DNA from: a virus
Strand: one strand, 5' to 3'
Length of the DNA stretch: 37,109 nucleotides
Virus record (IMG/VR): IMGVR_UViG_3300036780_000098
Location: 1 to 37,109 of that record
Shown here piece by piece: positions 5,022-35,970 of the stretch; within the stretch, counting starts at the first letter, position 1, and each line of letters starts with the position of its first letter. The notes beneath the pieces are model-generated. The model saw nothing but the letters and a program-made list of their open reading frames with translations, was not told where the DNA came from and did no database searches. A program made the translations under genes and the position numbers.

Positions 5022-5113
5022 TGTATGTCGTCCTGCTGGCCGCGACGCCGCTCCTGACCGGGGCCGCCGTCTACGTCCTCTTCCGGCTCACCGGCCGGCT
5101 GGGCAAGCCATGA
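5021..5113 (+). CDS. 30-residue single-helix membrane peptide
   Basis: The ATG overlaps the preceding stop by one base (TGATG) and the stop overlaps the next ATG (ATGA). The product is essentially one hydrophobic helix (residues 2-22) with a short basic end. Tight coupling on both sides supports translation. A second peptide of the same size and kind occurs at 6493, just before the methyltransferase gene. Confidence 0.5.
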   Translation: MYVVLLAATPLLTGAAVYVLFRLTGRLGKP

Positions 5114-6585: not shown

Positions 6586-7352
6586 CCGACCCCTACTGGA
6601 GCGACGACACCTGCAGCATCTACCTGGGGGACTGCCGCGAGGTGCTGCCCGCGCTCGGCATGGTGCCTGACTGCATCGTGGCCGACCCACCCTACGGTGA
6701 GACCTCGCTGCCGTGGGACAAGTGGCCCGCTGGCTGGCTGGACGTGGCCGCCCAGGCCGCCAGCTCACTGTGGTGCTTCGGCAGCCTGCGGATGTACCTC
6801 AAGCACGCTGACGAGTTCGCGGACTGGAAGCTCAGCCAGGACGTGATCTGGGAGAAGCCCTGCGCCACCAACTTTGTGGCCGACCGGTTCAGGCGCGTGC
6901 ACGAGCACGTCCTGCACTGGTACCGGGGCAGGTGGGATCGCATCTACCACGTCACGCCGCGCGTGCAGGTGGAGCACCGGACACAGGGCAATTCAGGCAC
7001 CGGGGCGGTACCGCCAGCGCGGCACTGGACGGGGGGGCAGTTCGAGTCGAGCCCGTGGAGTGATGACGGGACACGGCTGATGCGCTCCGTCATCGCAGCG
7101 CCGAGCCTATGGCGAAAGGGCGGCATCCACCCCACCGAGAAGCCGGTAGCCATCCTTGAGCCACTGACCGCCTACGCCTGCCCGCCCGGTGGCCTGGTCG
7201 TTGACCCGTTCGCGGGCAGCGGCAGCACGCTCGACGCGGCCCGCCAGGCTGGCCGCCGGGCGATCGGCGTCGAGGCCGACGAACGGTACGCCGAGCTGGC
7301 TGCCCGCAGGCTCTCCCAGGTTGACCTGCTCAGCACGGAGGCCACGCCATGA
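6582..7352 (+). CDS. DNA (N4/N6) methyltransferase, beta-type motif order
   Basis: This is a 256-residue enzyme. The catalytic motif DPPY is at residues 35-38, and the AdoMet-binding motif DPFAGSGS is near the C-terminus (about 208-215). This is the motif order of beta-class amino-methyltransferases that modify adenine N6 or cytosine N4. Between them are WEKP and the HPTEKP motif that precedes the AdoMet region in this class. No restriction endonuclease is linked, so it is probably an orphan methylase that protects phage DNA or alters regulation. The start at 6582 follows the coupled overlap; a longer upstream start would overlap the previous gene. Confidence 0.92.
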   Translation: MTDPYWSDDTCSIYLGDCREVLPALGMVPDCIVADPPYGETSLPWDKWPAGWLDVAAQAASSLWCFGSLRMYLKHADEFADWKLSQDVIWEKPCATNFVADRFRRVHEHVLHWYRGRWDRIYHVTPRVQVEHRTQGNSGTGAVPPARHWTGGQFESSPWSDDGTRLMRSVIAAPSLWRKGGIHPTEKPVAILEPLTAYACPPGGLVVDPFAGSGSTLDAARQAGRRAIGVEADERYAELAARRLSQVDLLSTEATP

Positions 7353-7552
7353 CCACCACCGGCCAGCTCATCGCCCGCGCACGCCAGAACACCGGCCTGT
7401 CACAGCGGCAGCTCGGCGACCGGCTCGGCGTCACCCAGGCCGCCGTCGCCCACTGGGAACACGGCCGCCGCGCCATCTACGTTGTGCGGCTGGCCCAGGT
7501 CGCCGCGGTGACCGGCGTCCGCACGTTCGCCCTGATCGGCGACCAGCCGTGA
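7349..7552 (+). CDS. small XRE-family HTH regulator
   Basis: This is a 67-residue protein that is almost entirely a Cro/C1-type helix-turn-helix (SQRQLGDRLGVTQAAVAHWE, residues 18-37). The ATG overlaps the methyltransferase stop and the stop overlaps the next GTG. In this position it may control the methyltransferase or recombination genes, like a restriction-modification controller protein, or be a second early regulator. Its target is unknown. Confidence 0.85.
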   Translation: MTTTGQLIARARQNTGLSQRQLGDRLGVTQAAVAHWEHGRRAIYVVRLAQVAAVTGVRTFALIGDQP

Positions 7553-8403
7553 GCGTGACCGAGGCCGGCATCTACCCGGACATGCCCGAAGACGAATACC
7601 ACCGGGATCCCGTGCCGGAGGGGAGCCTGTCCAGCACCGGGGCGCGGAAGATGCTGCCCCCGTCCTGCCCGGCCATCTACCGGTACGAGCAGGACCACCC
7701 CGTGTTCAAAGACGTGTTCGACTTCGGGTCGGCCGCGCACAAGATGGTGCTCGGCATAGGCCCGAAGCTCAAGCTCATCGCCGCGAAGGACTGGCGCAGC
7801 AAGGCCGCCCAGGACCAGCGCGACGAGGCCCGCGCGAACGGGTTCATCCCGCTGCTGGCCCCCGAGCTGGAGCGCGTCGAGCAGATGGCCGCCGCGATCC
7901 AGGACCACCCGGTAGCCGGGGCGTTGCTCGACCCGCGCGGCGGGGGCCAGGCCGAGCTGAGCATGTTCTGGCAGGAGCCCGAGTTCGGGGTGTGGTGCCG
8001 GGGCCGGCTTGACTGGCTGGCCGCGCAGCGGACCAGCTTCGGCCAGCCCATCGTCTGCGACTACAAGACCAGCGCCTGTGCCGAGCCGGAGACGTTCGCC
8101 CGCAAGTCGGCCGGCGAGTTCGGCTACCACTGCCAGGCCGCCTGGTACAGCGACGGCTATTTCATGCTGACCGGCGAGCAGCCCGCGTTCCTGTTCGTGG
8201 TGCAGGAGAAGACGCCGCCGTACCTGGTGAGCGTCGTGCAGCTCGACCCCGAGTCCGAGCAGATCGGCCGCGAACGCAACCAGCGCGCCATCGAGCGGTA
8301 CCGCGACTGCGCCGCCTCTGGGATCTGGCCGGGCTACACCGACGACATCGAACTGATCACGCTGCCGCCGTGGCAGCGCTCCCGAGGAGATGACCTGCTG
8401 TGA
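7549..8403 (+). CDS. PD-(D/E)XK exonuclease, RecE/RecB-like
   Basis: This is a 284-residue nuclease starting at the GTG coupled to the preceding stop. The active-site series is visible: His64 (GSAAHKMV), Glu136 (AELSMFW), Asp155 (RGRLDWL), Asp171 and Lys173 (CDYKTS), then Gln196 and Tyr200 (HCQAAWY). This is the order of the RecB-family/RecE C-terminal nucleases annotated as exodeoxyribonuclease VIII-like. It probably makes 3' single strands for phage recombination together with the protein encoded at 8597-9853. A 65-codon gene separates the two. Confidence 0.88.
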   Translation: MSVTEAGIYPDMPEDEYHRDPVPEGSLSSTGARKMLPPSCPAIYRYEQDHPVFKDVFDFGSAAHKMVLGIGPKLKLIAAKDWRSKAAQDQRDEARANGFIPLLAPELERVEQMAAAIQDHPVAGALLDPRGGGQAELSMFWQEPEFGVWCRGRLDWLAAQRTSFGQPIVCDYKTSACAEPETFARKSAGEFGYHCQAAWYSDGYFMLTGEQPAFLFVVQEKTPPYLVSVVQLDPESEQIGRERNQRAIERYRDCAASGIWPGYTDDIELITLPPWQRSRGDDLL

Positions 8404-8597
8404 ACCACGAGTCGATGACCGAGGAAGAGATCAAGGAAGCCAAGGCGGCCGAGCACGAACGCCGGACGATCGCCGTCGAGACCGCCGGCCTGCACGCCGC
8501 ATTCGCGGCGCTCCAGCCGCTCGACTACCACGCTCGCTGCCGCGCCCTCCACTGGCTGCGCGACGCGCTCGACAACCGCGAGGAGCCTCCGTTCTGA
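8400..8597 (+). CDS. 65-residue helical protein between recombination genes
   Basis: The GTG at 8400 overlaps the exonuclease stop and the TGA overlaps the next ATG by one base. The protein is charged and predicted all-helical (EEEIKEAKAAEHERR, then a second helix with DYHARCRALHWL). It could be an accessory factor of the adjacent nuclease/annealase pair, judged only from its place. The family is unknown. Confidence 0.65.
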   Translation: MNHESMTEEEIKEAKAAEHERRTIAVETAGLHAAFAALQPLDYHARCRALHWLRDALDNREEPPF

Positions 8598-9853
8598 TGA
8601 CCACCACAGCTATCGAACCCAGGAACGGCAACGGGATCGCCGTCCCGTCGCCCGGCCGCGTCGGCCAGGCCACCGCCGTCGAGCAGTCCCGCGCCGTCGC
8701 CGAAGTCCAGGCCGCCATCGTCGTCGCCCAGCAATGCCCCCGCGACATCTCCCGCGCCCAGCGGGCCATGCGCCAGTCCTGCGGCCAGAAAGCCCTCGCC
8801 GAGCGGGCGTTCTTCAGCTACCCGCGCTCCGGGGAGACCATCACCGGCCCGTCCGTTCAGCTCGCCCGCGAGCTGGCCCGCTGCTTCGGCAACCTCCAGT
8901 ACGGCATCTCCGAGCTGCGCCGCGACGACGGCTACGGCCAGTCGGAGATGCTGGCGTTCGCGTGGGACGTGGAGACCAACACCCGCAGCTCGACGACGTT
9001 CGTGGTGCCGCACAGGCGGGACACGAAGAAGGGCGTCAAGGCCCTGACCGAGATGCGGGACATCTACGAGAACAACGCGAACAACGGTGCCCGCCGCCTG
9101 CGGGAGATGATCTTCGCGGTGCTGCCGGCCTGGTTCACCGAGGAGGCCGTGGCCGAGTGCTACGAGACCCTGGCCGACGTGGACGGCGTGCCGATGGCCG
9201 ACCGGATCAAGAGCGCGGTCAGCAACTACGCGGCCCTGCACGTCTCGCAGGCCGACCTGGAGCGCAAGGTCGGCGCGCCGTCATCGGCGTGGAGCGCCTA
9301 CGACGTAGCTCACCTGGGCGTCGTCCACCGCAGCATCATGCGGGGCGAGGCGCGCAAGGAGGACGAGTTCCCGGCCGCCACGGCCGCGGTTGCGGCCGGC
9401 CGGGTGGGCACGGACGGCATCACGGGCAGCGGCCAGACTGGCCAAGGGACAGGTAAGAGCGGGACTGCCCAGAGCGCTACGGGCGCACTGAGCGGCAGTG
9501 AAAGCGCAAAGGCCCAGGAGCCACCCGCCGCCAGCACACCGCCGGACCCGGCTGACGCCGCGAGCCCAGCCGGGCCAGAGCCGGCCCCGCGCGCTCGCTC
9601 GATCCACAAGTCCACCCTCGGCAACCTCCGCAGCGCGCTGGCCAGCCTGCCGTTCGAGACGCCGGAAGACGTCCCCGGGCTGGTGTCCGATCTCGTGGGC
9701 CGCAAGGTCGAGTTGCTGGAATCCCTGCACCAGGACGAAGGCCGGGCGCTCGTCGCCGCGATCGACAAGGCGCTCAGCGACGCCCAGGGCGACACCGAGT
9801 CGGCCGTGGGTGACCTGTGGGCGCAGGCCCGCGCCAAGGTGGCCGGCCAGTGA
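8597..9853 (+). CDS. probable single-strand annealing (recombination) protein
   Basis: This is a 418-residue protein. Residues about 45-230 form a conserved-looking core with FSYPRSGETITGPS, ARCFGNLQYG, FAWDVETN and NNGARRLREMI. I recognise this core from phage proteins next to RecE-like nucleases. A low-complexity Gly/Ser/Pro linker follows (about 275-335), then a C-terminal helical domain (about 340-418) that could bind a partner such as SSB or the nuclease. It lacks clear RecT or Red-beta signatures, so the function is inferred from pairing with the PD-(D/E)XK exonuclease. The ATG overlaps the previous stop (TGATG). Confidence 0.7.
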   Translation: MTTTAIEPRNGNGIAVPSPGRVGQATAVEQSRAVAEVQAAIVVAQQCPRDISRAQRAMRQSCGQKALAERAFFSYPRSGETITGPSVQLARELARCFGNLQYGISELRRDDGYGQSEMLAFAWDVETNTRSSTTFVVPHRRDTKKGVKALTEMRDIYENNANNGARRLREMIFAVLPAWFTEEAVAECYETLADVDGVPMADRIKSAVSNYAALHVSQADLERKVGAPSSAWSAYDVAHLGVVHRSIMRGEARKEDEFPAATAAVAAGRVGTDGITGSGQTGQGTGKSGTAQSATGALSGSESAKAQEPPAASTPPDPADAASPAGPEPAPRARSIHKSTLGNLRSALASLPFETPEDVPGLVSDLVGRKVELLESLHQDEGRALVAAIDKALSDAQGDTESAVGDLWAQARAKVAGQ

Positions 9854-10014
9854 GCTACTGCACCATGACCTGCTGCCTGGCCCACCGCCGCCAGTCGTAC
9901 TGGAACCTCCAGGACCGCGCGTGGGTCCACGCCGACGGCTGGCTGTGCGACTCGCTGGCCGGCCAGCCCGCACCTGCGCCCGACCCGGCCGACCGGGAGC
10001 TGACCAATGCCTGA
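9850..10014 (+). CDS. 54-residue Cys/Trp-rich mini-protein
   Basis: The GTG at 9850 overlaps the preceding stop. Four Cys (CTMTCC near the N-terminus and one near residue 37) plus His and several Trp suggest a small metal-binding or zinc-ribbon fold. The stop overlaps the next ATG by eight bases. The function is unknown. Confidence 0.55.
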   Translation: MSYCTMTCCLAHRRQSYWNLQDRAWVHADGWLCDSLAGQPAPAPDPADRELTNA

Positions 10015-10186
10015 CGGGCCTGCGGCCGAGCTGGGCAACGTCACCACACCCAGCACCGGCTACAGCGAGTGGGCGCAGATCAGCCACGACTGCGACTGGT
10101 ACGACCACTACGCCTGCACGGGCTGCGACTGCGACTGCCACCCGCCAGCGACCCCGCCGACGATCAAGAACAGCCAGGAGGGCTGA
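10007..10186 (+). CDS. 59-residue Cys-rich mini-protein
   Basis: The ATG at 10007 lies inside the end of the previous gene and its TGA overlaps the next ATG. Residues 32-47 are very rich in Cys, Asp and His (DCDWYDHYACTGCDCDCH), probably a metal-binding knot. The rest is Pro/Thr-rich. It is not recognised, and only the coupling and Cys pattern support it. Confidence 0.5.
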   Translation: MPDGPAAELGNVTTPSTGYSEWAQISHDCDWYDHYACTGCDCDCHPPATPPTIKNSQEG

Positions 10187-10401
10187 TGACAGGACCAGAC
10201 CACTACCAGGCCGCCGAAGTAATGCTCGACCTGGCATCAGACGACGAAATGGGCAGCGTCGAGGAGAGCTTCCATCAGCTCCAGGCCCAGGTGCATGCCA
10301 CGCTCGCGCTCGCCGCCGCCACCGCCCTGGCCCACGTGTGGGCCGACCAGGACAACGACGACGCCCACGCCTGGCTCCGGGCAGCATCGGCGGCCACATG
10401 A
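10186..10401 (+). CDS. 71-residue acidic helical protein
   Basis: The ATG at 10186 is preceded by AGGAGG and overlaps the previous stop. The protein is acidic and Ala-rich, with two predicted helices and no Cys, unlike its neighbours. It is coupled to the HNH-like gene downstream. The function is unknown. Confidence 0.65.
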   Translation: MTGPDHYQAAEVMLDLASDDEMGSVEESFHQLQAQVHATLALAAATALAHVWADQDNDDAHAWLRAASAAT

Positions 10402-10751
10402 GCAGGGGACCGATCGTCGCCAATGATCTGTGGGCGCAAGTCGTCGTGCGCGCGGACGGCCGGTGCGAGTGCACCGGGTACCGCGGGCGCTCGCACACTG
10501 ACCGCCGCCTCAAGACCGCCCAGGACCCGCGCTGCCAGCACCGGGACACCGAACAGTCGCCACTGCATGCCGTCCCGCGCAACGGTGAGACCGGCGTCGC
10601 CGCGATGCGGCTCGGCCCACGAGGGCTCGCCGCGCTGTGCGACGACTGCGACAAGGGCGTCCAGGCGGGCCGCCGCCGCGTCCAGCGCAAGCACGAAGCC
10701 GCCAATCCGGGCACCGGCACGGCACTGTTCCCCGAGCTCATGCCGCCCTAG
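10398..10751 (+). CDS. HNH-like nuclease fold protein
   Basis: The ATG at 10398 overlaps the previous stop, giving 117 residues. Residues 10-100 have the layout of a zinc-bound HNH/treble-clef protein: CECTGYRG, then CQHRD, a loop, and ALCDDCDKG, with a basic C-terminal helix. The central HNH histidine is not obvious, so activity is uncertain. Relatives in actinobacterial prophages are annotated as HNH endonucleases. It closes the first coupled early operon. Confidence 0.65.
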   Translation: MSRGPIVANDLWAQVVVRADGRCECTGYRGRSHTDRRLKTAQDPRCQHRDTEQSPLHAVPRNGETGVAAMRLGPRGLAALCDDCDKGVQAGRRRVQRKHEAANPGTGTALFPELMPP

Positions 10752-10811
10752 AGACGCGGGCGCGGGACGCCGCACAAGCCCCGCCCACGGCACCCCGCGC
10801 CCGCCCAGAAC

Positions 10812-11739: not shown

Positions 11740-12215
11740 CCGAGAGCCTCGGCCAGGTCCTCGCACGCGCCACCACCGACCTCATCGACGCCATCGCCAC
11801 CTGGACAGCCCAGCAAGTCACCGCCGCCGTCACACCACACCCACCGACCGGCGAACCGGTGGCGCAGCTCGTCACCGCGGACAGGCTCGACGCGATCATG
11901 GTTGAACTCGGCCTGCCCACCGCCGACATGTCGATGCCCATGTTCGAAGCGCTCGCCGAGAACATCAACGCCCTGCACAGCCAGGCCATGCTCGCCGTCG
12001 AAGTCGCCGACCTGGTGTGCACCAGCTGCGGGAAGCCAATGCCACCACGCCAGAACTGCTCCCACTGCAAGCCACCAGCCACCAGCACGCCACCCACCCG
12101 CGACCAGACGTCCACCACCGCGCTCACCACCGAACGACGCTGGAGCGGCGACCAAGCCGGCCACATCAACCGCTTCGGCTTCCAGCGCGGCTTCCCGGCC
12201 TCACCACGGGCATGA
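11736..12215 (+). CDS. helical protein with one zinc ribbon
   Basis: This is a 159-residue protein coupled to the previous gene (ATGA). Residues 1-95 are helical and acidic. CTSCGK and CSHC at about 95-110 make a four-Cys zinc ribbon, and a Thr/Pro-rich tail follows. It sits just ahead of two HNH genes and may be a DNA-binding or accessory packaging factor, but that is only positional. Confidence 0.65.
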   Translation: MTESLGQVLARATTDLIDAIATWTAQQVTAAVTPHPPTGEPVAQLVTADRLDAIMVELGLPTADMSMPMFEALAENINALHSQAMLAVEVADLVCTSCGKPMPPRQNCSHCKPPATSTPPTRDQTSTTALTTERRWSGDQAGHINRFGFQRGFPASPRA

Positions 12216-12216
12216 C

Positions 12217-12549
12217 ATGCCAGCCAGGTGGTGCATTGACTGCGGAACCCTCTACAACCGCGACACCGCACCAGGCCAACGCTGCCCCACCTGCCAAACC
12301 ACACACGACGCCAAACGCGGCACCAGCAGCCAGCGCGGCCTCGGCTGGGCATTCAGCCGCCGCAAAGCCGCAGACACCGGCTACCAGGCAGCCACACACT
12401 GCCACTGGTGCGGAGGGCCCTTCACGACCGACGACCCTAAGACGGCCGATCACACCAAACCACGGTCACGCGGCGGCAGTGACGGGCCGATCGTCGCCGC
12501 CCACCGATCCTGCAACTCCAGTCGCGGAGGCAAGCTTGCCCACGAATAG
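12217..12549 (+). CDS. HNH endonuclease
   Basis: This is a 110-residue protein. CIDCG...CPTC near the N-terminus forms a zinc ribbon, and residues 60-100 form a canonical HNH/ββα-metal nuclease: CHWCGGPF, ADHTKPRSRGGSDG with the catalytic His, AHRSCN with the metal ligands. HNH proteins beside terminase genes assist terminase cutting at cos in HK97-like phages. The ATG at 12217 is chosen because it follows the previous stop by one base and keeps the zinc ribbon whole. Confidence 0.88.
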   Translation: MPARWCIDCGTLYNRDTAPGQRCPTCQTTHDAKRGTSSQRGLGWAFSRRKAADTGYQAATHCHWCGGPFTTDDPKTADHTKPRSRGGSDGPIVAAHRSCNSSRGGKLAHE

Positions 12550-13192
12550 CTGCCCAGGCTGCGGCGCAGAGATCAGCGGCCGCAAGCGCAAATGGTGCAC
12601 GCCTCGATGCCGGGAACGGAACCGGCCGCCGCGGCCTGCCCGGCCTGGCCGGCCAGCAGGCAAGCGACGTCTGCGGACATGCGAGGTGTGCAGCGCCACC
12701 TACCGGCCGACCTATGGCCAGCAGCGCACCTGCGGCCGGATGTGTGGCGCCGAGCTGCAGCGCCGGAACGGCTGCTACGACAGGACCAGCCAGCGCGTCA
12801 GATGGCCATCATCAAAGGTCCACATCCGCGACTGCGTCCAATGCGAACGCCTATTCGTCGCCCGCCGCGCCACCCAGACCATCTGCAGCGATACATGCCG
12901 ACGGCGACGGCTGATCAGCCAGGTGCTTGACCGCCACTACGGATTCGTCCGGGACGCCATGCGTGAAGGCCCACTGCTGGACTACCTGACCAAGCGTGAC
13001 CATGGGCGATGCGGCATCTGCAACAAGCCAGTCCGCGCGAAGACAGGACCGATGCGGGCATCTATAGACCACATCGTGCCGCGCAGCATCAGCCACGACG
13101 ACAGCCTGACGAACCTCCAGCTCGCACACTGGAAGTGCAACACAACTAAGAGCAACCGAGGCGGCGGCGAGCAGTTGCTGCTGGTGGGATGA
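12536..13192 (+). CDS. HNH endonuclease with N-terminal zinc ribbons
   Basis: Translation probably begins at TTG 12536, because GGAGG at 12526-12530 is spaced five bases before it and coding continues without another good start. The product has 218 residues. Three Cys-rich ribbons (CPGCG...CTPRC, CEVCS...CGRMC, CVQCE...CSDTC) occupy residues about 5-125. A C-terminal HNH domain follows with CGICNKPV, SIDHIVPRS and HWKCN. The ribbons resemble DNA-binding modules of homing-type or packaging HNH enzymes. It is the last gene before the cos candidate. Confidence 0.85.
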   Translation: MPTNSCPGCGAEISGRKRKWCTPRCRERNRPPRPARPGRPAGKRRLRTCEVCSATYRPTYGQQRTCGRMCGAELQRRNGCYDRTSQRVRWPSSKVHIRDCVQCERLFVARRATQTICSDTCRRRRLISQVLDRHYGFVRDAMREGPLLDYLTKRDHGRCGICNKPVRAKTGPMRASIDHIVPRSISHDDSLTNLQLAHWKCNTTKSNRGGGEQLLLVG

Positions 13193-25500: not shown

Positions 25501-25658
25501 CCGGCGACATCGAGCAGCTGTACGCCGAGTACCTGTTCCCCCTCGGCCACATCTGCCACCTGTCCCGCGACGACGTCGGGCGCCTGAACCTGCAGGACTT
25601 CGCCACCTACCTTGACGCCACCGACGCCTACATCGAGGCGATGAACCGGAAGGAGTGA
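25078..25658 (+). CDS. gpGT-like chaperone by predicted -1 frameshift
   Basis: The frame one base back is open from the stop at 25374 to the TGA at 25656-25658. It encodes about 60 residues that have no start codon of their own (DIEQLYAEYLFPLGHICHL...LNLQDFATYLDATDAYI), a typical T-domain sequence. Slippage at G-GGG-GTG (25473-25479) would replace the last eight residues of the short form and give a 193-residue fusion. The P-site codon re-pairs perfectly; the A-site pairing is weaker. The long form would bind tape measure while the short form gives the correct ratio. Confidence 0.72.
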
Positions 25659-25660
25659 GC

Positions 25661-27871
25661 ATGGCCGGGAACCTGGTCAAGAAGGTCATGCTCAAGATCG
25701 TCGCCGACGACGGCGACAGCGAAGAGAAGCTCGACCGCATCTCGGAGAAGGCGGACGAGCTGGGCCGCAAGCACCCCGAGATCAAGGTCCGGGTGGACGC
25801 GGCCGCCGCGTCGGCGAAGGTGGCGGTGCTGCGGCGGGAACTGAAGGACGCGGGCAAGGACGCCGAGCAGCCGCACCACTTCAGTCTGTCCGGGATCATG
25901 CCCGCGATCGGCGAGATGTCCATGTTCCAGAAGGTCATGCTGGCCACGAACATCGCGACCACGTTCGCGGAGCCGCTGATGGCCGGCCTGACCGTCGTCG
26001 TCGGCGGCCTCACCAGTGCGCTGGCCGCGGGCGGGATCGGCCTGGGTGCGTACGGTCTGGCCCTCGAAGGGCTGATCAAGTCCGGGTACAAGCCGCTCAC
26101 CGGCGCGATCTCGGGGGCGAAGAAGGAGTGGGAGTCCTGGTCGGAGTCTCTGGCGAAGCCGGTCGCGGCGCCGGTGATCGGGTTGCTGCATCAGGTGCCG
26201 GGCCTGCTGAAGGACATCACCCCGTTCGCGAAGTCGGCGGCGTCCGCCCTCACCGGCCTCGTCCACCAGTTGTCCGCGGGCCTGCAGTCCAGCGGGTTCC
26301 AGGACTGGCTGCATTCGATCCTGCCTGAGGTGAAGCCGGTGATCACCGGGCTGGGCCAGGCGATCGGGCACATCGTGGTCGGGATCGGCGGGATCATCAA
26401 GGCGTTCGCGCCGGTGGGGCCGGTGATCATCGGCGGCCTGGACAAGATCACGGCGAGGTTCGCCCACTGGGGCCAGACCCTCTCATCGCACTCCGGTTTC
26501 AAGTCGCTGATGACGATGTTCAAGACGGAGACGCCGCTGGCGGTCGGCGTGCTGAAGAACCTCGGCTCGACGATCATGACGATCGTCAAGGACATGACGG
26601 GCCTGTCCGGGGTGGGAAACTCGAAGTTCCTGCTGCAGATGGCGATGCCGTTCACGTCACTGCTGCGGGTGCTCGTCCAGGCGAACCCGGCCCTGGTCCG
26701 GTTCGCCCTGTACGCGGCCGCGGCCGGGAGCGGGATCAAAAAGATATCGAACGTGTTCGGCACGAACGGCCTGGTGGGGGACGTCCAGTCGGCGATCAAC
26801 GTCCTGGGTAACTTCGGTCACGCGGCCGAGGACGCTGGCGCGGGGGAGAAGATCGCGGCCGCGGCGACGCGCATATGGGAGGGCGCGCAGGCCGGCCTGG
26901 ACGCGGTGATGGACGCGAACCCGATCGCCCTGATCGTGATCGCCGTGGTGGCGCTGATCGCCGTGGTGGTGCTGATGGTGACGCACCTGCACGAGACGGC
27001 GCACATTTTCGACATGGTCCGGCACGCCGGGGCGGTGGCGTTTGATGCGGTGCGCCACGCGGTGGCGACGGCGTTCGACTGGATCAAGGGGCACTGGCCG
27101 CTGCTGCTGGCGGTGCTGACCGGCCCGATCGGCATGGCGGTGCTGTTCATCGTCGATCACTGGCACACGCTGGTGTCCGATACGCATCAGGCGTGGTCGG
27201 ACATCGTGAATTTCCTGCATTCGGCCTGGTCGGACATCGTGAACGGGATACACACGGCCTGGTCGGACGTGGTGAACCTGACGCATTCGGGCTGGTCGGA
27301 TGTGATCAACGTGCTGCATTCGGCGTGGTCGTCGATCGTGAACGCGGTCAGCGGCGGGGTGCATCAGGTCGAGTCGTTCTTCTCTTCGCTGCCGGGCCGG
27401 ATCGTCGGCTTCCTGGCCTCCTTGCCGGGGATGCTGTTCAGCGCGGGCGTGCATGCGATGGAAGGGCTGATCAGCGGCCTGGGCTCGATGATCGGCAAGG
27501 TCGGGTCCGTCGTGAGCGGTATCGCGGGCAAGGTGGCCGGGTTCTTCGGCTTGTCGCCGGCGCGGGAGGGGCCGCTGTCGGGGGGCGGGGCGCCGTTCAT
27601 CCGCGGCCAGCATTTCGCCGCGGACTTCGCCGCGGGGATGGTGTCCGGCCATCCGGGGATCACGTCGGCCGCGGCCGCGCTGGCCGGTGCGACGGGGATG
27701 GCGAGCCGGGCCGGTGCTGGCGGTGCGGGGCAGAAGTTCACGTTCGAGTTCGCCGGCGGCGGCGGCACCGAGCTGGATCACGCCATATGGGAGTGGTTCG
27801 TCCGCAACGTGCGCGTGAAGGGCGGCGGCGGCCCGAACTCGGTGCAGCGGGCACTGGGGCAAGGCACCTAG
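25661..27871 (+). CDS. tail tape measure protein
   Basis: ATG 25661 has GGAAGGAG upstream; a GTG two codons earlier overlaps the chaperone stop. The product is about 737 residues. It starts with basic/acidic coiled segments, has a Gly-rich hydrophobic region (about 100-150), two strongly hydrophobic helices (for example residues 421-440), an 11-residue repeat block (509-563) and a Gly/Ala C-terminus. It would set tail length; at about 0.15 nm per residue this means about 110 nm. No lysozyme-type peptidase domain is seen. Confidence 0.92.
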   Translation: MAGNLVKKVMLKIVADDGDSEEKLDRISEKADELGRKHPEIKVRVDAAAASAKVAVLRRELKDAGKDAEQPHHFSLSGIMPAIGEMSMFQKVMLATNIATTFAEPLMAGLTVVVGGLTSALAAGGIGLGAYGLALEGLIKSGYKPLTGAISGAKKEWESWSESLAKPVAAPVIGLLHQVPGLLKDITPFAKSAASALTGLVHQLSAGLQSSGFQDWLHSILPEVKPVITGLGQAIGHIVVGIGGIIKAFAPVGPVIIGGLDKITARFAHWGQTLSSHSGFKSLMTMFKTETPLAVGVLKNLGSTIMTIVKDMTGLSGVGNSKFLLQMAMPFTSLLRVLVQANPALVRFALYAAAAGSGIKKISNVFGTNGLVGDVQSAINVLGNFGHAAEDAGAGEKIAAAATRIWEGAQAGLDAVMDANPIALIVIAVVALIAVVVLMVTHLHETAHIFDMVRHAGAVAFDAVRHAVATAFDWIKGHWPLLLAVLTGPIGMAVLFIVDHWHTLVSDTHQAWSDIVNFLHSAWSDIVNGIHTAWSDVVNLTHSGWSDVINVLHSAWSSIVNAVSGGVHQVESFFSSLPGRIVGFLASLPGMLFSAGVHAMEGLISGLGSMIGKVGSVVSGIAGKVAGFFGLSPAREGPLSGGGAPFIRGQHFAADFAAGMVSGHPGITSAAAALAGATGMASRAGAGGAGQKFTFEFAGGGGTELDHAIWEWFVRNVRVKGGGGPNSVQRALGQGT
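27185..27349 (+). repeat. five 33-bp repeats in the tape measure gene
   Basis: Five units of 33 bp encode HxxWSDIVNxx-type 11-residue repeats (consensus H-S-A-W-S-D-[IV]-V-N). Trp comes at each fourth position and the spacing is exact. Such Trp/Phe repeats at 11-residue intervals are a known feature of tape measures and match helical turns of the tail. Confidence 0.85.
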
Positions 27872-27883: not shown

Positions 27884-28042
27884 ATGGCGAACAAGCAGAC
27901 GTTCACCGTCGTCAAGAGCGCGACGGTGCGCGTAACCCACGAACACCGGTTCGACGAGCCGGACGACAAGTGCCGGTGCGGCAAGGCCGAGCACGAGACC
28001 GACGGGCCAGTGCAGGTGACGGAGGTGACCAGCGGTGAGTGA
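27884..28042 (+). CDS. 52-residue protein with Cys/His pair
   Basis: The ATG follows GAGGAGAGGT. The protein is beta-rich and has CRCGKAEHE near residues 31-39. It lies between the tape measure and tail genes and overlaps the next GTG by eight bases. The function is unknown; it may be a small tail component. Confidence 0.6.
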   Translation: MANKQTFTVVKSATVRVTHEHRFDEPDDKCRCGKAEHETDGPVQVTEVTSGE

Positions 28043-28403
28043 CGGACCATCGGCGGCGGGCGCGGACGCGATGCTGACCGCGCTGATAGCCGACTTCGCG
28101 GACGTGCAGCTGCACACCGCCGACCCCGGCGGCGCGGGCACCACCAGCGTGTCCAGTGTGACCACCCGCGAGGCGGAAACCTGGGGGTCACCGTCGGCCG
28201 GTTCCGTGTCGGCCAGCGGCACGCCGACCTGGTCCAGCTGGGCCGGGACCAACGGTGAGGAGGTCACCGATATTTCCGGCTGGTCGGCGCCGACCAGCGG
28301 CACGTTCGGCGATTCGATCCAGCTCGGCTCCGGGGTGACCCTGTTCACCGGGGACACGCTGGAGCTGACCGCGGTCACCATCTCGATCCCGACCGCGTCT
28401 TAG
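28035..28403 (+). CDS. minor tail or virion protein
   Basis: This is a 122-residue protein rich in Ser, Thr and Gly. Residues 10-50 have DAMLTALIADFADVQLHTADPGGAGTT-type sequence, which I know from small actinophage tail genes, and the rest is beta-sandwich-like (WSAPTSGTFGDSIQL, FTGDTLELTAVTISI). Likely a small structural protein near the tail tip. Assigned from order and composition. Confidence 0.65.
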   Translation: MSDGPSAAGADAMLTALIADFADVQLHTADPGGAGTTSVSSVTTREAETWGSPSAGSVSASGTPTWSSWAGTNGEEVTDISGWSAPTSGTFGDSIQLGSGVTLFTGDTLELTAVTISIPTAS

Positions 28404-28411: not shown

Positions 28412-31400
28412 GTGCCTGGGCCGTACAACGTCTGCAACGGGACCGCCAGCAGCGGCAGTGCGACGCTGACGGTCACCGTCGGCTCAGGCACGCCCACCGG
28501 CGGCAGCAGCGCGGCCGGGGATCTGGTCTATGTCACGGGTGGCAACACCGGTGGCCTGAACGTCACCGGCGTCACCGACAGCCAGGGCAACACGTACACG
28601 CAGGCGCCGAACCCGGCGAACTCGTCTGGCGCCAACCAGCGGTGCAGCATCTGGGCGTCGCTGACCACGAAGGCCCTGGTATCGGGCACGGACACGGTCA
28701 CGGTCACCTGGTCGTCCACCGGCGGGAACAAGTCGCTGATCGCCCGCGCGTGCAGCGGGGTGGCGTCGGCGTCGGCGGACCAGTCGGCGGGTGCGAACGG
28801 CACCAGCACCAGCCCGGGCTCGGGCGCGACCGGTGCGCTGGCGCAGGCGGGCGAGCTGGTGGTGGGCGCGATCCAGGACGCCACCGCGGGCGGCACGCCG
28901 ACCGGGCTCAGCTTCGGCACCGGGCTGACGGCCGGGAATACGACCGGGTTCGACGAGATCGTCTCCTCGACGTCGGCGGTGACCGCGTCCGGCACGATCA
29001 CCTCGGCGGCGTGGGGTGCGTGCGTGGCCACGTTCAAGATGGCCACCTTCACCGCGGCGGCCAGCCAGACGGTCACCCCGGACCAGTCGGCGCTGATGGA
29101 CAGCCTGCCTGCCACGGCCAGCCAGACGGTCACCCCGGCGCAGGCGGCGGCCGGGGTGGTGCTGACGGGTGAGCCGTACCTGATCGGCAGCGCGGGGCAC
29201 GCCACCGGCGCGGCCAGCCTCCAGGTGCCCGTGGGCAGCAACGGCGGCCACGCCTCCGGCGTGCAGGACGCGCTGCTCGTCGCTGGCGGCGCGTCCGGGA
29301 ACAGCGTCGAAGACGTCACCGACACGGCCAGCAACACCTACAGCCTGAGCCCCGGCGGCAGCGATGCCACGAAGCCGGGCACGTACCTGTTCGCGTCCCT
29401 CGGCCCGGCGCTGCTCGAGGCGGCCGGGTCGGTCACCCTCGGCTACGCCACCACCGCCGGAGCGAAGACCGGTATCGCCATCGGTGTGCCCGCGCCCGGC
29501 GGTCTGGACACGGCGGTGGCCGCCGACGGCGACAGCACCACCCCGTCGGTCACGACCGGCACCCTGGCCGAGCCGGGTGAGCTCGTGGTCGCGTTCTGCA
29601 CGTACGGGCAGGCGGGCGGCACGATGACGTGGGCGGACGGGTGGACGCAGCTGTGCGCCCCGTTCCAGGCCGCGGCCGGCCAGGAGTGGATGACCGCCGC
29701 CTACACCGTGGCCAGCGATACGAGCCCGGTCACCGCGGCGGGGACGATCGGCCTGGCGAACTGGACGATCGTCGCCCAGCCACTCATCCCCCAGCTGGCC
29801 ACCGCCGCCCAGACGGTCACGCCCAGCCAGGCCGCCACCCTGCACGTGACCGGCGGCGTGCGGGAGGCCACCGCAGCCCAGACGATCACCCCCGCGCAGG
29901 CGGTGGCCCCCGCGGTCGTCGCCACCGTCACCGCCACCGCCGCCGAGTCGGTCACGCCGGCACAGTCAGCCACGGCCCTGGTGGCCGGCCCGGGCCAGTT
30001 CCCCGACGCACCGCTCGGCGTGACCGCCGAGATCGCGCTGCCGTCCACCGGCACCGGCAGCGCTCCCACCGGCAGCAGCGGCGGCCTGGCAGGCGACTTC
30101 GGCAACACCTACCACGTGCCCAGCCTGGGCACGATCGACGTGGCCACGAAAGAATGGGTCGGCACCCTCGCCGGCTACCCGCCTGATGAGGTGGAACGCT
30201 GGCCGACCGCCCGCAAATGCTTCTTCAGCGCCTCGGACGGCACCGGCAGCGTGGCCAGCTTCCCGGTCACCTTCGGCTCCGACACGCAGGCCGCAAAAGA
30301 CCTCAAGATGCGCGCCTACCTGTGCTACAAGCCGGCGTACAACAGCGGCCTGTCCAGCTATGACGCCACGGTGGGGTCGGCCACCGCCGGGAACAGTCAC
30401 GGCGGCACGCAGGCCGACTGGATCGCCCTGAAGGCGTCGGTCGCCTGGCTCAGCTCCCACGGCCTGACCTGCGAAGTCGTGCTGTGGCACGAGATCGAGC
30501 ACCAGCCCCTCACCGCCGTCCAGTACTTCTCCATGCTGGCGTTCTATTCCAGCGCGGTCTCCGCCGTCCTCGGGACGGGCCACCTGCACCATGTCGCGTC
30601 GGCCGCCTACTCCGGGCAGCTGGTGGACTACTTCCCGGGCAAGCCGAACTTCAGCACGGAATGTTTCGTCGCCAAGGGCTGGACGGACTGCTACACGCAC
30701 TCCTGGTTCAACGGGTACCAGCTCGACGGAGGCACCACGCCGGCCGCCCCGGATTCGCTGATCGGCTTGTGCAACCGGAACAGCATCCCGTTCGGCGGGG
30801 TCATGGAGTTCGGCTGCGGCGGCGTGATCGCCGCGGGCCAGCAGCCCGCCGACACCAACGGCTACATCGACTACCTGACCGGCATCGCCGCGGCCTACCC
30901 GGGGTCCAGTTACATATGGTTCGCCGACACGACGGTCGGCAGCACGAATGACGTGATTCCTGGTTTTGCCAGCGGTGAGAGCGGCGGGTATGACGCCCGG
31001 CCGCACCTGCAGGCGCTGGCCGACGCGATCACCGGCGGCGCCGGTGGTGGTGGTGGCGGCGGTGGCGGTGGCGGTGGCACGGCCGGAGTCGTCTGGGAGG
31101 ACGTCACCGGCTACCTGTACGCGCCGGCCGGCCAGCCGGTGGTGACGCTGACCCGCGGCCGGCCGAACGAGTCGTCGCAGGTGAACCCGGGACAGGCCAC
31201 CTGCCAGATCGACAACCGGGCCGGGGATTTCACCGCCGCGAACCCGGGCGGCCGCTGGTACGGGCTGCTCAGCAAGAACACGCCGATCCGGTTCAGCGTG
31301 CCCAGCCAGGACGTGTACCTGCGCCTGGAGGACGACAGCACGTCGTGCGCGGCGTGCCCCACCGCGGCGGGCCTGGACATCACCGGCGGCATCGACGTCC

Positions 31401-33850
31401 GTCTCGACGTCACCCTGTCGAGCTGGGCTGAGACGGTCCTGGCGGCGAAGTGGACGCCGGGCACGGGCAACACGGAGAACTCCTGGATCCTGCTGCTGAA
31501 CCCGGACGGGACGCTGACCTGGTTCTGGTCCACGACGGGCAGCGACACGCTGTCCGCGCAGTCCACCGCGCCGGTCCCCGCCTATGGCCGGATGATGATC
31601 CGGGTCACGATGAACGCCAGCAACGGCACGGTCCGCTTCTACACCGGCCCCGTGCTCGGTTCCGGCAGCCAGCTGGGCGCCGCGGTGGGCCCGGGCACGG
31701 CGACCAGTATTTTCGTGAGCACGGCGCCGGTGAGTGTCGGCAACTACGGGCCGGCGAACCTGGCCAGCGAGGGCCTGAACGGGTCGGTGCACGAGTTCCA
31801 GCTGTATGCGGGGATCGCGGGGACGCTGGTGGCGGACCCGGTGTTCTCCGCCCAGCAGCCCGGCGCGCCCAGTTTCGCTGACGCGCAGGGGAACACGTGG
31901 ACGCCGTACGGGACGGCCGAGCTGTCGCAGCGGTCCTACCGGTTCCACGGCGAGATGAGCTCGGTGCCGAAGGCGGCGGACCCGACGGTCACCGACGTGT
32001 GGGTGGACCTGCAGGCGGGCGGCCTGCTGCGCCGCCTGTCGCAGGGCAACGCGCCGGAGTACAGCCCGATGCGGCGGGCGGTGCAGGCGCAGGCGGGGAC
32101 GCTGGCGCCGGCCGCCTACTGGCCGGCCGAGGACTTGCAGGGCAGCACGGTGCTCGGCAGCGCGACCGGCGGGCCGAGCATGACCGTATCCGGCGGGACG
32201 GGTGACGGGTCGGTCACGTTCACCGGGCCGGCGTTCAGCTCCGATACGACGTTCGCCTGCTCGGCCGCGCTGCCGGTGCTGAACGGGTCCGCGTGGCACG
32301 GCATCGTGCCCCGCTACACGAGCAACGGCAGCCTGATCGTCCGCTTCCTCATGAGCATCCCCAGCACGGCGGTGGCGTCCACACCGGTCATGCGGGTGCT
32401 CACCACCGGCACCCTGCAGGAGTTCTCCCTGTACTGGACCAGCGGCGGCGGCCTGTCCCTGGCGGGCTTCAGCCAGTCCGGCCAGGTGTTCAGCTCCGGG
32501 CCGGTGTCGTTCGGGGTGGACGGCAACCCGGTGTGGGTGAGCATGGAACTGCGGCCCGGGTCCGGGTCGCAGGTGAACTGGTCGATGGCCACCCTGCAGC
32601 CGGGCGCCAGCACGGGCCTCGGTTTCGCCGGCCACTTCAATGGGACGATCGGCCGCGCCACCGACATCTGGGTGTCCCCGGCCGGGAAGCAAACCCAGGT
32701 CACGATCGGCCATATCCAGGTCCAGTCCGACTGGGTGAGCCTGTTCAGCCTCTACCAGCCGCTGAACGCGTGGGACGGCGAGACCGCCGGATCCAGGTTC
32801 GCCCGGCTCTGCTCGGAGAACGGGGTCGCGGCCCGGATCGTCGGGCCGCCGGGCCTGTCTGCGGCGATGGGCGCCCAGCCGGTGGATACCCTCCCGGACT
32901 TGCTGACCCAGTGTGAGACCGCCGACATGGGGATGATCTTCGAGCCGCGGACGGCGTACGCCCTCGGCTACCGCACCCTGGTCAGCCTGCTGAATCAGAC
33001 GCCGGCGGCCACGATCGACTGGTCAGCCGGCCAGCTGTCCGACAGCGGGTTCAGCGCGCCCACCGACGACGACCAGTACACGATCAACGACGTCACCGCC
33101 ACCCGCGACTCCGGCGGCAGCGGCAGCAACTCCTCGGGCGCGTCGGTGCGGATCCTCCTGGACGACGGCACACCCATGTCGGTCAGCCCGCCGCCGGCCG
33201 GGGCGGGCGACTACGCCACCAGCGCGGACGTAAACGTCGAGTCTGACGCCCAGCTGCCCGACGTCGCGAGCTGGCTGGTGCACCGGGGCACGGTGGACGA
33301 GCCGCGCTGGCCGGCGATGCCCGTCGATTTGACGTGGCGGGACCTGGCCGCGCTCCGGTGGGCGCTGCAGGAGGTGGACGTCGGCGACCGGGCCGACCAG
33401 ACGGGCCTGCCGACCTGGCTCACCTGGAATGACGTCCGCCAGCTGGCCGCCGGGGCGAGTGAGCAGATCGGCGACTTCGTCTACAAGATCGCCTGGAACG
33501 CGATACCGGAGTCGGTGTACGAGACCGGCGTCCTCGATGACCCGGTGTACGGGCGGGCCGACACGGACGGCGCCACGCTCACCAGCGCGGTCAGCACGAC
33601 GGACACGACGCTGCCGGTGACGTCGGCCGGCCTGCCGTGGACGACGGCGGCGGGTGACCTGCCGTTTGATATCCAGCTGCACCCGCCGGGCGCGCCCGGC
33701 CGGGGTGAGCAGGTCACCGTCACCGCGGTCTCCGGCACGTCGAGCCCGCAAAGCTTCACGGTCACCCGGTCGGTCAACGGCGTGGTGACGGCGCACGCGG
33801 CCGGGGAAACCGTCAGCCTGTTCACCGAACCAGTGTTCGCGCTCGCATGA
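28412..33850 (+). CDS. giant modular tail protein with glycosidase-like domain
   Basis: This is a 1812-residue protein starting at GTG 28412, with only a GC-rich tract for a ribosome binding site. Residues 1-215 and 250-460 are two related beta domains, each followed by stalk-like repeats of the form AxQTVTPxQAA (about 217-245 and 465-530). Residues about 545-865 resemble a (β/α)8 glycoside hydrolase: WHEIEH with Glu694 and MEFG with Glu799 would be acid/base and nucleophile, as in GH26-like enzymes. A run of at least twelve Gly (about 877-890) leads to a region with two LamG-like sandwiches (about 970-1150, 1230-1445) and a tail-tip hub. It probably binds and trims host surface glycans. Confidence 0.8.
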   Translation: MPGPYNVCNGTASSGSATLTVTVGSGTPTGGSSAAGDLVYVTGGNTGGLNVTGVTDSQGNTYTQAPNPANSSGANQRCSIWASLTTKALVSGTDTVTVTWSSTGGNKSLIARACSGVASASADQSAGANGTSTSPGSGATGALAQAGELVVGAIQDATAGGTPTGLSFGTGLTAGNTTGFDEIVSSTSAVTASGTITSAAWGACVATFKMATFTAAASQTVTPDQSALMDSLPATASQTVTPAQAAAGVVLTGEPYLIGSAGHATGAASLQVPVGSNGGHASGVQDALLVAGGASGNSVEDVTDTASNTYSLSPGGSDATKPGTYLFASLGPALLEAAGSVTLGYATTAGAKTGIAIGVPAPGGLDTAVAADGDSTTPSVTTGTLAEPGELVVAFCTYGQAGGTMTWADGWTQLCAPFQAAAGQEWMTAAYTVASDTSPVTAAGTIGLANWTIVAQPLIPQLATAAQTVTPSQAATLHVTGGVREATAAQTITPAQAVAPAVVATVTATAAESVTPAQSATALVAGPGQFPDAPLGVTAEIALPSTGTGSAPTGSSGGLAGDFGNTYHVPSLGTIDVATKEWVGTLAGYPPDEVERWPTARKCFFSASDGTGSVASFPVTFGSDTQAAKDLKMRAYLCYKPAYNSGLSSYDATVGSATAGNSHGGTQADWIALKASVAWLSSHGLTCEVVLWHEIEHQPLTAVQYFSMLAFYSSAVSAVLGTGHLHHVASAAYSGQLVDYFPGKPNFSTECFVAKGWTDCYTHSWFNGYQLDGGTTPAAPDSLIGLCNRNSIPFGGVMEFGCGGVIAAGQQPADTNGYIDYLTGIAAAYPGSSYIWFADTTVGSTNDVIPGFASGESGGYDARPHLQALADAITGGAGGGGGGGGGGGGTAGVVWEDVTGYLYAPAGQPVVTLTRGRPNESSQVNPGQATCQIDNRAGDFTAANPGGRWYGLLSKNTPIRFSVPSQDVYLRLEDDSTSCAACPTAAGLDITGGIDVRLDVTLSSWAETVLAAKWTPGTGNTENSWILLLNPDGTLTWFWSTTGSDTLSAQSTAPVPAYGRMMIRVTMNASNGTVRFYTGPVLGSGSQLGAAVGPGTATSIFVSTAPVSVGNYGPANLASEGLNGSVHEFQLYAGIAGTLVADPVFSAQQPGAPSFADAQGNTWTPYGTAELSQRSYRFHGEMSSVPKAADPTVTDVWVDLQAGGLLRRLSQGNAPEYSPMRRAVQAQAGTLAPAAYWPAEDLQGSTVLGSATGGPSMTVSGGTGDGSVTFTGPAFSSDTTFACSAALPVLNGSAWHGIVPRYTSNGSLIVRFLMSIPSTAVASTPVMRVLTTGTLQEFSLYWTSGGGLSLAGFSQSGQVFSSGPVSFGVDGNPVWVSMELRPGSGSQVNWSMATLQPGASTGLGFAGHFNGTIGRATDIWVSPAGKQTQVTIGHIQVQSDWVSLFSLYQPLNAWDGETAGSRFARLCSENGVAARIVGPPGLSAAMGAQPVDTLPDLLTQCETADMGMIFEPRTAYALGYRTLVSLLNQTPAATIDWSAGQLSDSGFSAPTDDDQYTINDVTATRDSGGSGSNSSGASVRILLDDGTPMSVSPPPAGAGDYATSADVNVESDAQLPDVASWLVHRGTVDEPRWPAMPVDLTWRDLAALRWALQEVDVGDRADQTGLPTWLTWNDVRQLAAGASEQIGDFVYKIAWNAIPESVYETGVLDDPVYGRADTDGATLTSAVSTTDTTLPVTSAGLPWTTAAGDLPFDIQLHPPGAPGRGEQVTVTAVSGTSSPQSFTVTRSVNGVVTAHAAGETVSLFTEPVFALA

Positions 33851-33860: not shown

Positions 33861-34358
33861 ATGACCGGTGTAGCCGGCATCCTGGCCGGTGCCAGGATCA
33901 CCGCCGCGATGATCGCCGCGATCGCGCCCAACGCGGTGGTCAAAGGCGACGACGAATCCCTCTCCTCGAGCACGGCCATGCAGAACGATGACGCGCTCGT
34001 CATCCCGCTGACCGCCAACTCCAGCTGGCTGGTGGTGTGCTTCTTCAACTATGTGGCGACGACCGGCGCGGACTTCAAATACCGGTTCACCGCGCCGTCG
34101 GGGATCACCGGCTACCAGCAGCCGACCAGGCTGAACCTGTCCGGCCAGTTCACCGGCGCGTTCAGCAGTCTGTGGACGGACACGGTCACCGCCGACGGGC
34201 AGGGCGCCAGCACGATCATGAACGTGTTCGCGTTCGGCCAGATCACCACCGGCCCGGCCGGCGGGGACCTGCAGCTCCAGTGGGCGCAGAACACGAGCAA
34301 CGGCAACTCGACCACGGTCAAGGCCGGAAGCATTCTCGCCGCCTGGCAGGTCGCATGA
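33861..34358 (+). CDS. small tail/tip protein, beta-rich
   Basis: This is a 165-residue protein with GAGGA before its ATG. It has a hydrophobic helical N-terminus (residues 3-25) and then a beta-sandwich with WLVVCFFNYVATTGADFKYRF and LSGQFTGAFSSLWTDTV. It follows the giant tail protein and may be a trimeric tip or base component. The family is unrecognised. Confidence 0.65.
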   Translation: MTGVAGILAGARITAAMIAAIAPNAVVKGDDESLSSSTAMQNDDALVIPLTANSSWLVVCFFNYVATTGADFKYRFTAPSGITGYQQPTRLNLSGQFTGAFSSLWTDTVTADGQGASTIMNVFAFGQITTGPAGGDLQLQWAQNTSNGNSTTVKAGSILAAWQVA

Positions 34359-34875: not shown

Positions 34876-35218
34876 GCACGAGGAGCGGCTGCCCGTTGGC
34901 CCGAAGGGTGACCGGGGTGAGCGGGGGATGCCCCGCGGGCAGCGGCGGGCGGTCGTGTTCCTGTTCCTGCTGTCGCTGGCCATGTCGGTGGCCGCCTACC
35001 TGGCCGCCACCAACTACTACCGGGACGGCCAGGCCACGCAGCAGCGGCAGGGCCTCGTGCTGGAGCGGAAGCTGTGCGGGTCGTTCGGGAAGCTGGCCGG
35101 CCTGCACCCACCGCCCGGGAACCCGGCCACCAATCCCAGCCGGGCGTACCTGCAGACGCAGCATGACATCCTCGCCGGGATCGGCGCCGACCTGCAATGC
35201 CCCGGAGGCAGTCCATGA
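34868..35218 (+). CDS. single-helix membrane protein with a collagen-like stretch
   Basis: The GTG at 34868 overlaps the previous gene, giving 116 residues. Residues 11-22 read GPKGDRGERGMP, a short Gly-X-Y run, then a transmembrane helix (about 30-50), then a region with Cys near residues 70 and 111. The external part may form a disulfide. The shape resembles spanin-like or signal-anchor proteins, but the role is unknown. Confidence 0.6.
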   Translation: MNEHEERLPVGPKGDRGERGMPRGQRRAVVFLFLLSLAMSVAAYLAATNYYRDGQATQQRQGLVLERKLCGSFGKLAGLHPPPGNPATNPSRAYLQTQHDILAGIGADLQCPGGSP

Positions 35219-35970
35219 GGGAGATGTACGACGCCACCGTCCCGGGGAACATCCGGGCGAGCGCGGCCATGGTCGCCTGGTACGGCGACGGCCTGTACGC
35301 GTGGAGCCAAGCGGACCTCGACCGGTTCGCGGACGCGGTCAAGGTGCGGATCACCGTCTTCGCTGATGATGACGAGGGCCAGGTTCTCGACGTCGAGAAC
35401 GGCGACGCCACGCCGGTGGAAGCGCCCGGGTGGGCGCAGCGCCGCCGGGCGGCCGGGCAGGACCCGACGGTGTACTGCAACGCGTCAACCTGGCCGCAGG
35501 TGCGGGCCGAGTTCGCCCTGGCGAAGGTGGCCGAGCCGCACTGGTGGATCGCCGAGTACGACGGCCGGCCGGAGGTCCCGGCGGGGGCGGTCGCGAAACA
35601 GTACCTGGGCGGGCCGACGGCACTGTTCGACGTGTCGGCCGTGGCGGACTACTGGCCGGGCGTGGACCCGGCACCCAAACCAGCACCAGCACCGGAGGAA
35701 GCGATGGCGAACGGGATGATCACCGGCAAGGCCGGGAGTAAGCAGGACATCGTCTGCCCGATGGGGAAGCGCCCGGACCTGATCACGTTCGGCTGCTCGG
35801 AGGCCGCGCGGCTGTCGGTGGATACGCGGGTGAAGGGCACGGCCGACGTGGAGGTTGACCTCAGCTACGTGGAGACCAAGCCGGTCGAGTGGCCGAAGGG
35901 GATCGACATGATCGTCGTGCACGTCGTCGAGGCGGCCGCGGACGGGACACCCATCAGCTGGGCGTACTAG
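35215..35970 (+). CDS. probable endolysin, GH25/Rv2525c-like glycoside hydrolase
   Basis: This is a 251-residue protein; ATG 35215 has GGAGG upstream and overlaps the previous stop. Residues 1-150 are like the glycoside-hydrolase-type domain of Rv2525c and GH25: MYDAT with Asp6, VLDVENGDA with Asp59/Glu61, TVYCNASTWPQVRAEF, WWIAEYDG and KQY. A Pro/Ala linker (about 148-162) joins it to a beta-rich C-terminal domain. It would cut the cell wall for release. No amidase gene is present. The C-terminal domain may also be made separately (see 35694). Confidence 0.7.
   Translation: MREMYDATVPGNIRASAAMVAWYGDGLYAWSQADLDRFADAVKVRITVFADDDEGQVLDVENGDATPVEAPGWAQRRRAAGQDPTVYCNASTWPQVRAEFALAKVAEPHWWIAEYDGRPEVPAGAVAKQYLGGPTALFDVSAVADYWPGVDPAPKPAPAPEEAMANGMITGKAGSKQDIVCPMGKRPDLITFGCSEAARLSVDTRVKGTADVEVDLSYVETKPVEWPKGIDMIVVHVVEAAADGTPISWAY
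35694..35706 (+). promoter_or_regulatory. internal ribosome binding site and ATG in the lysin gene
   Basis: GGAGGAA at 35694-35700 lies three bases before an in-frame ATG at 35704. It falls at the linker between the catalytic and C-terminal domains, so translation from here would yield an 88-residue free C-terminal domain ending at the common stop. Several endolysins use such an internal start to form hetero-oligomers. Confidence 0.5.

Follow-up and report, generated by a model that had tools for sequence, protein, structure and literature searches.

In the published tail hub proteins (Tals) of siphophages, the hub domain comes first and the extension follows it (PMC7291167). For example, the Tal of the listerial phage PSA carries a glycosidase domain at the end of its C-terminal extension, and inserted carbohydrate-binding modules, as in "evolved Dit/Tal" proteins, are common in hubs or Dits (PMC7291167). 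In a separate context, viral GH26 genes from mangrove soil have been listed as auxiliary metabolic genes of carbon metabolism (PMC6460857). Here we describe a protein of an uncultivated virus that we consider fairly likely to be a tail-tip hub with lectin-like domains, preceded by N-terminal sandwiches and a tethered GH26-related glycosidase cassette.

The window, by which we mean the whole stretch of DNA analysed, is the complete IMG/VR virus record IMGVR_UViG_3300036780_000098 (37,109 bases, GC about 70%), and contains head and tail genes in the usual order (terminase, portal, head protease, major head protein, adaptor, tail tube and tape measure). The gene in question comes soon after this region of the tail operon, with two short ORFs between it and the tape measure gene. 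Its parts are as follows, where L002 is a second viral contig and L134 an actinobacterial protein, both described below.

25655..27871, + strand: tape measure protein, upstream of the 1812-aa ORF (phrog_305, E 8e-43)
28412..33850, + strand: single ORF of 1812 aa with a GTG start, in the order sandwich, stalk, sandwich, stalk, barrel, G12, tail hub; GC3 phase constant
28412..29047, + strand: sandwich-like domain 1 at the N-terminus, residues 1-212; shares 36% identity with domain 2 and is homologous to the start of the L002 protein
29048..29161, + strand: stalk with two QTVTP repeats, residues 213-250, recognised from the sequence repeats
29162..29791, + strand: N-terminal sandwich-like domain 2, residues 251-460, related to domain 1
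29792..30091, + strand: stalk with QTVTP, QTITP and ESVTP and a Ser/Gly-rich linker, residues 461-560, recognised from the sequence repeats
30092..31042, + strand: putative GH26-related (beta/alpha)8-type domain, residues 561-877, 65% identical to L002, with L134 as a homologue that in turn matches GH26A 6q75
30491..30493, + strand: Glu694, candidate acid/base in VVLWHE, at the predicted end of the strand counted as beta 4, invariant in the window, L002 and L134
30806..30808, + strand: Glu799, candidate nucleophile in GVMEFG, on the strand counted as beta 7, invariant in the window, L002 and L134
31043..31078, + strand: 12-glycine linker, residues 878-889; DNA of the barrel end and glycine start 85% identical to L002 over 72 bp
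31088..33847, + strand: gp27/VgrG-type tail hub, residues 893-1812 (phrog_5313, AlphaFold model and structural matches)
31310..31930, + strand: concanavalin-A/LamG-type lectin-like insertion 1, about residues 967-1173 (hub residues 75-281), Z about 18 to pentraxins
32096..32878, + strand: concanavalin-A-like insertion 2, about residues 1229-1489 (hub residues 337-597), Z about 17 to ConA-like jelly-roll domains

Several neighboring genes deserve mention in their own right. Between the tape measure and the hub, a 122-aa gene (28035-28403) matches Pfam Gp80, the podophage GP4 fibre protein family (E 2e-10), as well as phrog_240, and was not seen at the same place in related Streptomyces phages. 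The gene at 35197-35970, which has a weak GH25/endolysin-like match (Pfam E 0.0017, below the cut-off), is likely the lysin of this phage. A phosphoadenosine phosphosulfate reductase-like gene (5110-6006; phrog_424, E 2e-44) adjoins a DNA methyltransferase (6570-7352) and an exonuclease VIII-like gene (7189-8403), and two HNH endonuclease-like genes are present at 9498-10751 (phrog_1571, E 8e-7) and, just 5' of the terminase, at 12017-13192 (phrog_1271, E 1e-24).

The C-terminal part of the protein, read as the tail hub in the initial annotation, is strongly borne out as such. Residues 891-1809 match phrog_5313 with an E value of 6.2e-162 (profile positions 156-1050 of 1052), and an AlphaFold model of the hub, computed from an alignment with 21 prophage relatives (pLDDT 83.2, pTM 0.81), matches solved hubs and VgrG over hub residues 1-812, with Z scores of 19.0 to 3d37, 18.2 to 9gtr, 17.8 to VgrG1 (7q5p) and 17.1 to Mu gp44 (1wru). 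The two lectin domains inside the hub were absent from the initial annotation; for the first of them Pfam Laminin_G_3 scores below its cut-off (E 8.6e-5). The hub relatives are almost exclusively Streptomyces phages, at about 30% identity, and actinobacterial prophages, and since this is the case, the host of the phage is probably an actinomycete.

The hub gene of these relatives normally begins right at the hub. In nearly all of about 55 relatives its start, which adjoins the counterpart of residue 895, reads M.FP..PLD.R.EL..G.W.D, whereas 892 residues stand ahead of the hub in the window, where the first 15-20 or so residues of the usual hub start are missing and the glycine linker takes their place. 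A shorter N-terminal domain of about 200 residues precedes the hub in gp21 of the Thermobifida phage P1312 (L009, 4233-6206) and in an Actinomadura prophage (L034, about 7320-10775). This domain resembles the window sandwiches, though with a weak link in sequence (E 0.002) for L034; that of P1312 gp21 gives no significant sequence match to them.

The joining of the N-terminal part and the hub in one gene, through a polyglycine linker at about 31040-31078, had been proposed together with the concern that it might stem from a sequencing error at the glycine run. The linker is present and consists of exactly 12 glycines, a run that is not due to chance, because 2000 shuffles of the 1812-aa protein never gave more than 7 glycines in a row. 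Its DNA is a G-rich, low-complexity tract, of the kind in which assemblies can fail. An assembly or sequencing artefact at this point is nevertheless highly improbable, as the reading frame and codon composition agree on both sides of the tract: GC3 lies between 0.83 and 0.98 in every full 300-base block of the ORF, with a single frame phase throughout. This phase test discriminates, because the spurious upstream open frames of 680-750 residues that precede the prophage hubs L024, L032 and L038 show the wrong phase. Furthermore, none of the in-frame start codons around the junction in the window would let the hub begin where it does in its relatives. Codons 891-894, which come before the first conserved hub residues, read GGA GTC GTC TGG; the in-frame starts closest to them are GTG 848, which lies in the barrel, and GTG 910/911, which lies in the hub. 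Lastly, L002 is an independent contig with the same barrel end and beginning of the glycine tract at the DNA level, and its barrel is likewise fused to a tail protein. The 1812-aa ORF is thus supported as a real gene that is coding throughout and as a true fusion. Further candidate hub fusions, among them the long upstream ORFs at L024, L032 and L038, were rejected by codon phase.

At the N-terminus, the two related sandwiches and QTVTP stalk repeats that had been described were recovered at the sequence level. Sandwich 1 (about residues 4-201) and sandwich 2 (255-451) are 36% identical (E 4e-15), and the predicted stalks contain five repeats, with QTVTP at 219, 238 and 467, QTITP at 490 and ESVTP at 512. 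Over the first 100 residues, the L002 protein likewise shows homology to the N-terminal sandwich of the window (E 9e-8).

L002 (IMGVR_UViG_3300036805_000175, a record of 76.6 kb) contains the one close relative of the barrel that was found, 65% identical over residues 561-880, in a protein of 1150 aa. This protein begins with a sandwich like that of the window and ends as a different type of minor tail protein (phrog_1885), for which profile comparison with the window hub gave no significant match. The L002 barrel is flanked by G7 and G4 tracts and splits a single Ig-like He_PIG domain. When the flanks are joined they score 44.7 bits as one He_PIG domain (cut-off 24), whereas the N-terminal half scores 13.6 bits and the C-terminal half at most 18.3 bits, from which it follows that the barrel was inserted as a unit. 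As the two loci encode dissimilar tail proteins, the simplest reading of the sequences is a cassette, made up of the barrel and its C-terminal glycine tract, that at least two such proteins have acquired. We propose more tentatively, with slightly less than even confidence, that this glycosidase cassette is mobile and bounded by polyglycine, and that actinophages use it as a plug-in for tail proteins that are otherwise unrelated, ahead of the hub in one type and within an Ig-domain loop in another, so that their tail tips gain or swap the ability to cut a polysaccharide in a single recombination step. The tails of the window and L002, although otherwise different, have a second domain in common: a phrog_24062-like domain is found in the gene after the window hub (33861-34358, E 3e-10) and at the C-terminus of the gene preceding the L002 barrel protein (6160-7125, E 6e-5). 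In the tape measure of L002 (1712-5236), residues 1014-1089, close to the C-terminus, match a transglycosylase-like domain (phrog_12661).

Direct searches with the barrel returned few relatives. No match was obtained in Pfam (including hits at E <= 10), NCBIfam, PHROGs or PDB sequences, nor by tblastn against 50,697 phages and 72,556 plasmids; L002 was the sole relative in the viral contigs scanned with barrel patterns or alignments, and a pattern scan of genome contigs found none. A barrel profile gave no credible match in about 790 genomes of the phylum and genus, found L134 among 347 genomes of the order Streptosporangiales, and yielded no others in further genome searches; scoring in these searches is confined to a handful of top first-look candidates from each genome and does not prove that the barrel is rare. 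As found here, the family comprises three sequences, namely the window barrel, L002 and L134.

The initial annotation had predicted a glycosidase-like barrel. The AlphaFold model, based on two sequences, shows alternating strands and helices with the putative acid/base motif following a strand; the structures that match it best are for the most part TIM barrels, GH5, GH113 and GH30 among them. However, the model is of low confidence (pLDDT 36.6), Z values are at most 6.3 with E above 0.04, Foldseek found no match at E <= 0.001, and the active site could not be placed; the assignment of Glu694 and Glu799 to strands beta 4 and beta 7 rests on this same low-confidence model. Scores of GH26 HMMs against the window barrel fell within the range of shuffled sequences. 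Profile comparison by hhalign with GH26, GH5, GH39 and GH10 was likewise not significant, in a test of low power that also missed GH5 with the GH26 pair; the GH26 alignment placed the acid/base motif of GH26 on Glu694, with a score of 21.3 that was exceeded by 2 of 60 shuffles.

A link to GH26 comes instead through L134, a 375-residue frame with a twin-arginine-like signal sequence (SRRAVLGGG) that was found by the profile of the two viral copies at E 3.8e-4. The gene (1060-2184, minus strand) encodes a secreted, stand-alone actinobacterial protein and adjoins an aquaporin-like gene; a search for a Pfam family of L134 found none. By sequence, L134 is a true, distant homologue of the barrel, since it scores 26.0 bits with the barrel HMM and the maximum of 2000 shuffles is 7.9, as seen in the alignment of LTAEVCLWQEVGPKDMTAAQYHSYVQYY to LTCEVVLWHEIEHQPLTAVQYFSMLAFY. 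Against the solved GH26A 6q75, L134 gives an E value of 0.003 across a motif that ends in the nucleophile (WEIG vs GEVG), so that WEIG is aligned to the GH26 nucleophile motif GEVG/AEVG. Two purpose-built GH26 HMMs ranked L134 first of 2001 sequences (9.7 and 12.2 bits vs at most 5.8) and placed the motifs YPG..VD..D.Y and E.G in register. The His that precedes the acid/base Glu in GH26 is Gln in L134 (WQEVGPK).

The candidate catalytic pair lies in the contexts VVLWHEIEHQP (Glu694) and GGVMEFG (Glu799) in the window protein, and only three of the nine Glu residues of the barrel (688, 694 and 799) are invariant across the window, L002 and L134. The earlier proposal that this pair sits in a GH26-like context therefore holds moderately, and by way of L134 only, as no GH family model matches the barrel directly. 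Our conclusion is that the barrel probably represents a highly divergent domain that is related to GH26 and resembles clan GH-A, in which Glu694 would serve as acid/base and Glu799 as nucleophile. The label is given with moderate confidence and stops at "GH26-related" rather than GH26 member, because the GH26 HMMs miss the barrel, the hhalign score lies within those of shuffled sequences and the model is poor. For these reasons, too, a different clan GH-A TIM-barrel hydrolase (GH5, GH113 or GH30-like) or a new family has to be considered: the poor model matches GH5, GH113 and GH30 about equally, and GH26 is not detected directly by hhalign or the GH26 HMMs. We regard this as somewhat unlikely, given that GH26A 6q75 is the only sequence link of L134 to a solved enzyme, with the catalytic site in register, and that the GH26 HMMs likewise align the YPG..VD..D.Y and E.G motifs.

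The sequence around Glu694 contains a HEXXH coincidence, in WHEIEH, that the initial annotation did not mention. HEIEH (693-697) fits the zinc-protease pattern, is kept in L002 and lies in a domain rich in conserved His, all of which would agree with a metallopeptidase. We give this reading almost no credence, as L134 has WQEVGPK at the same site, no peptidase family matches, and in the model the motif comes after a predicted strand and not in a long helix, with a Pro two residues further along that breaks it. The zincin reading was accordingly rejected on the loss of HEXXH in L134 and the predicted position of the motif after a strand, not in a helix.

With the barrel taken as a GH26-related domain, the protein is most likely, judging from its sequence, a tail-tip glycan depolymerase. 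The hub, with its gp27/VgrG fold, would presumably form a trimer that closes the tail tube at the tip, and the lectin and sandwich domains may bind glycans on the host surface. The barrel would then cut the surface polysaccharide by the retaining mechanism of clan GH-A, with Glu694 as acid/base and Glu799 as nucleophile, while the flexible 12-Gly tether would permit the enzyme to work as the hub remains docked, sealing the tube. GH26 enzymes mostly act on beta-mannans; the catalysis, substrate and order of events given here, like the trimer geometry and the fold of the window barrel, are what we infer. The depolymerase-bearing tail protein of the initial annotation accordingly stands in its hub, its fusion and the retention of the Glu pair in L002 and L134, while the depolymerase function itself is likewise inferred. 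A contrary view is that the barrel is catalytically dead and uses a GH26-like scaffold only to recognise a receptor. Phage tails do reuse folds for binding, this protein already holds several probable glycan-binding domains, and the activity of the candidate pair is argued from sequence. Such a role is unlikely, however, since both Glu are kept in three divergent homologues in which only three of nine barrel Glu are invariant, and the stand-alone, secreted nature of L134 suggests an enzyme.

The receptors of actinomycete phages are poorly known. The barrel points to a way in which phages that infect filamentous soil bacteria could re-tool their entry into the host: it is an enzyme-like module with clean edges, bordered by Gly tracts, that occurs in two different tail proteins and in one of them is nested in an Ig domain. 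It also offers a ready-made module for testing. If active, the barrel would be a tool for surface glycans of actinomycetes. There is also a caution for virome surveys, in which GH26-type genes of soil viruses are called auxiliary carbon-metabolism genes, whereas that of the window belongs to the tail.

The novelty of the arrangement is best judged against the systems described at the outset. A new tail-enzyme architecture had been suggested for this protein, and the suggestion needs narrowing: hub-fused glycosidases, as in PSA Tal, and lectin insertions have already been described, but an N-terminal, exchangeable GH26-like cassette looks new. As far as shown here, what is new is that the domain stands N-terminal to the hub, that it is of a GH26-like type and that the cassette occurs in two dissimilar tail proteins; the literature, which was covered in part, yielded no paper describing a GH26 domain as part of a phage tail hub. 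The C-terminal 920 residues share their fold with the siphophage tail hub or Tal (the gp27 family, with Mu gp44 1wru, 3d37 and VgrG), and the hub likewise lies directly downstream of the tape measure region. Unlike the published Tals, it has an adhesion and enzyme region of 892 residues ahead of the hub. PSA Tal is also a hub protein with a fused glycosidase, but that of the window is N-terminal to the hub, GH26-like and tethered by polyglycine. The lectin-like insertions are as in "evolved Dit/Tal" proteins, to which the window adds an enzyme-like cassette and N-terminal sandwiches.

Within its own hub family (phrog_5313), the window hub is 27-39% identical to hubs such as Streptomyces phage phiSASD1 gp38, Eklok gp18 and Dubu gp16, whose genes start at the hub and have neither barrel nor polyglycine. 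In gp21 of Thermobifida phage P1312 and in the Actinomadura prophage, as in the window, a sandwich-like domain stands in frame before the hub; in these two, however, the barrel is lacking and the domain is joined directly to the hub. Among enzymes, GH26 endo-mannanases such as 6q75 have a Glu pair in HE and E.G contexts like those of the window, and L134 aligns with them at the nucleophile region, but the window barrel differs in that GH26 models do not detect it directly. Lastly, the GH26 genes of soil viromes share with the window a predicted GH26-type function, whereas in the window the domain is built into a tail protein.
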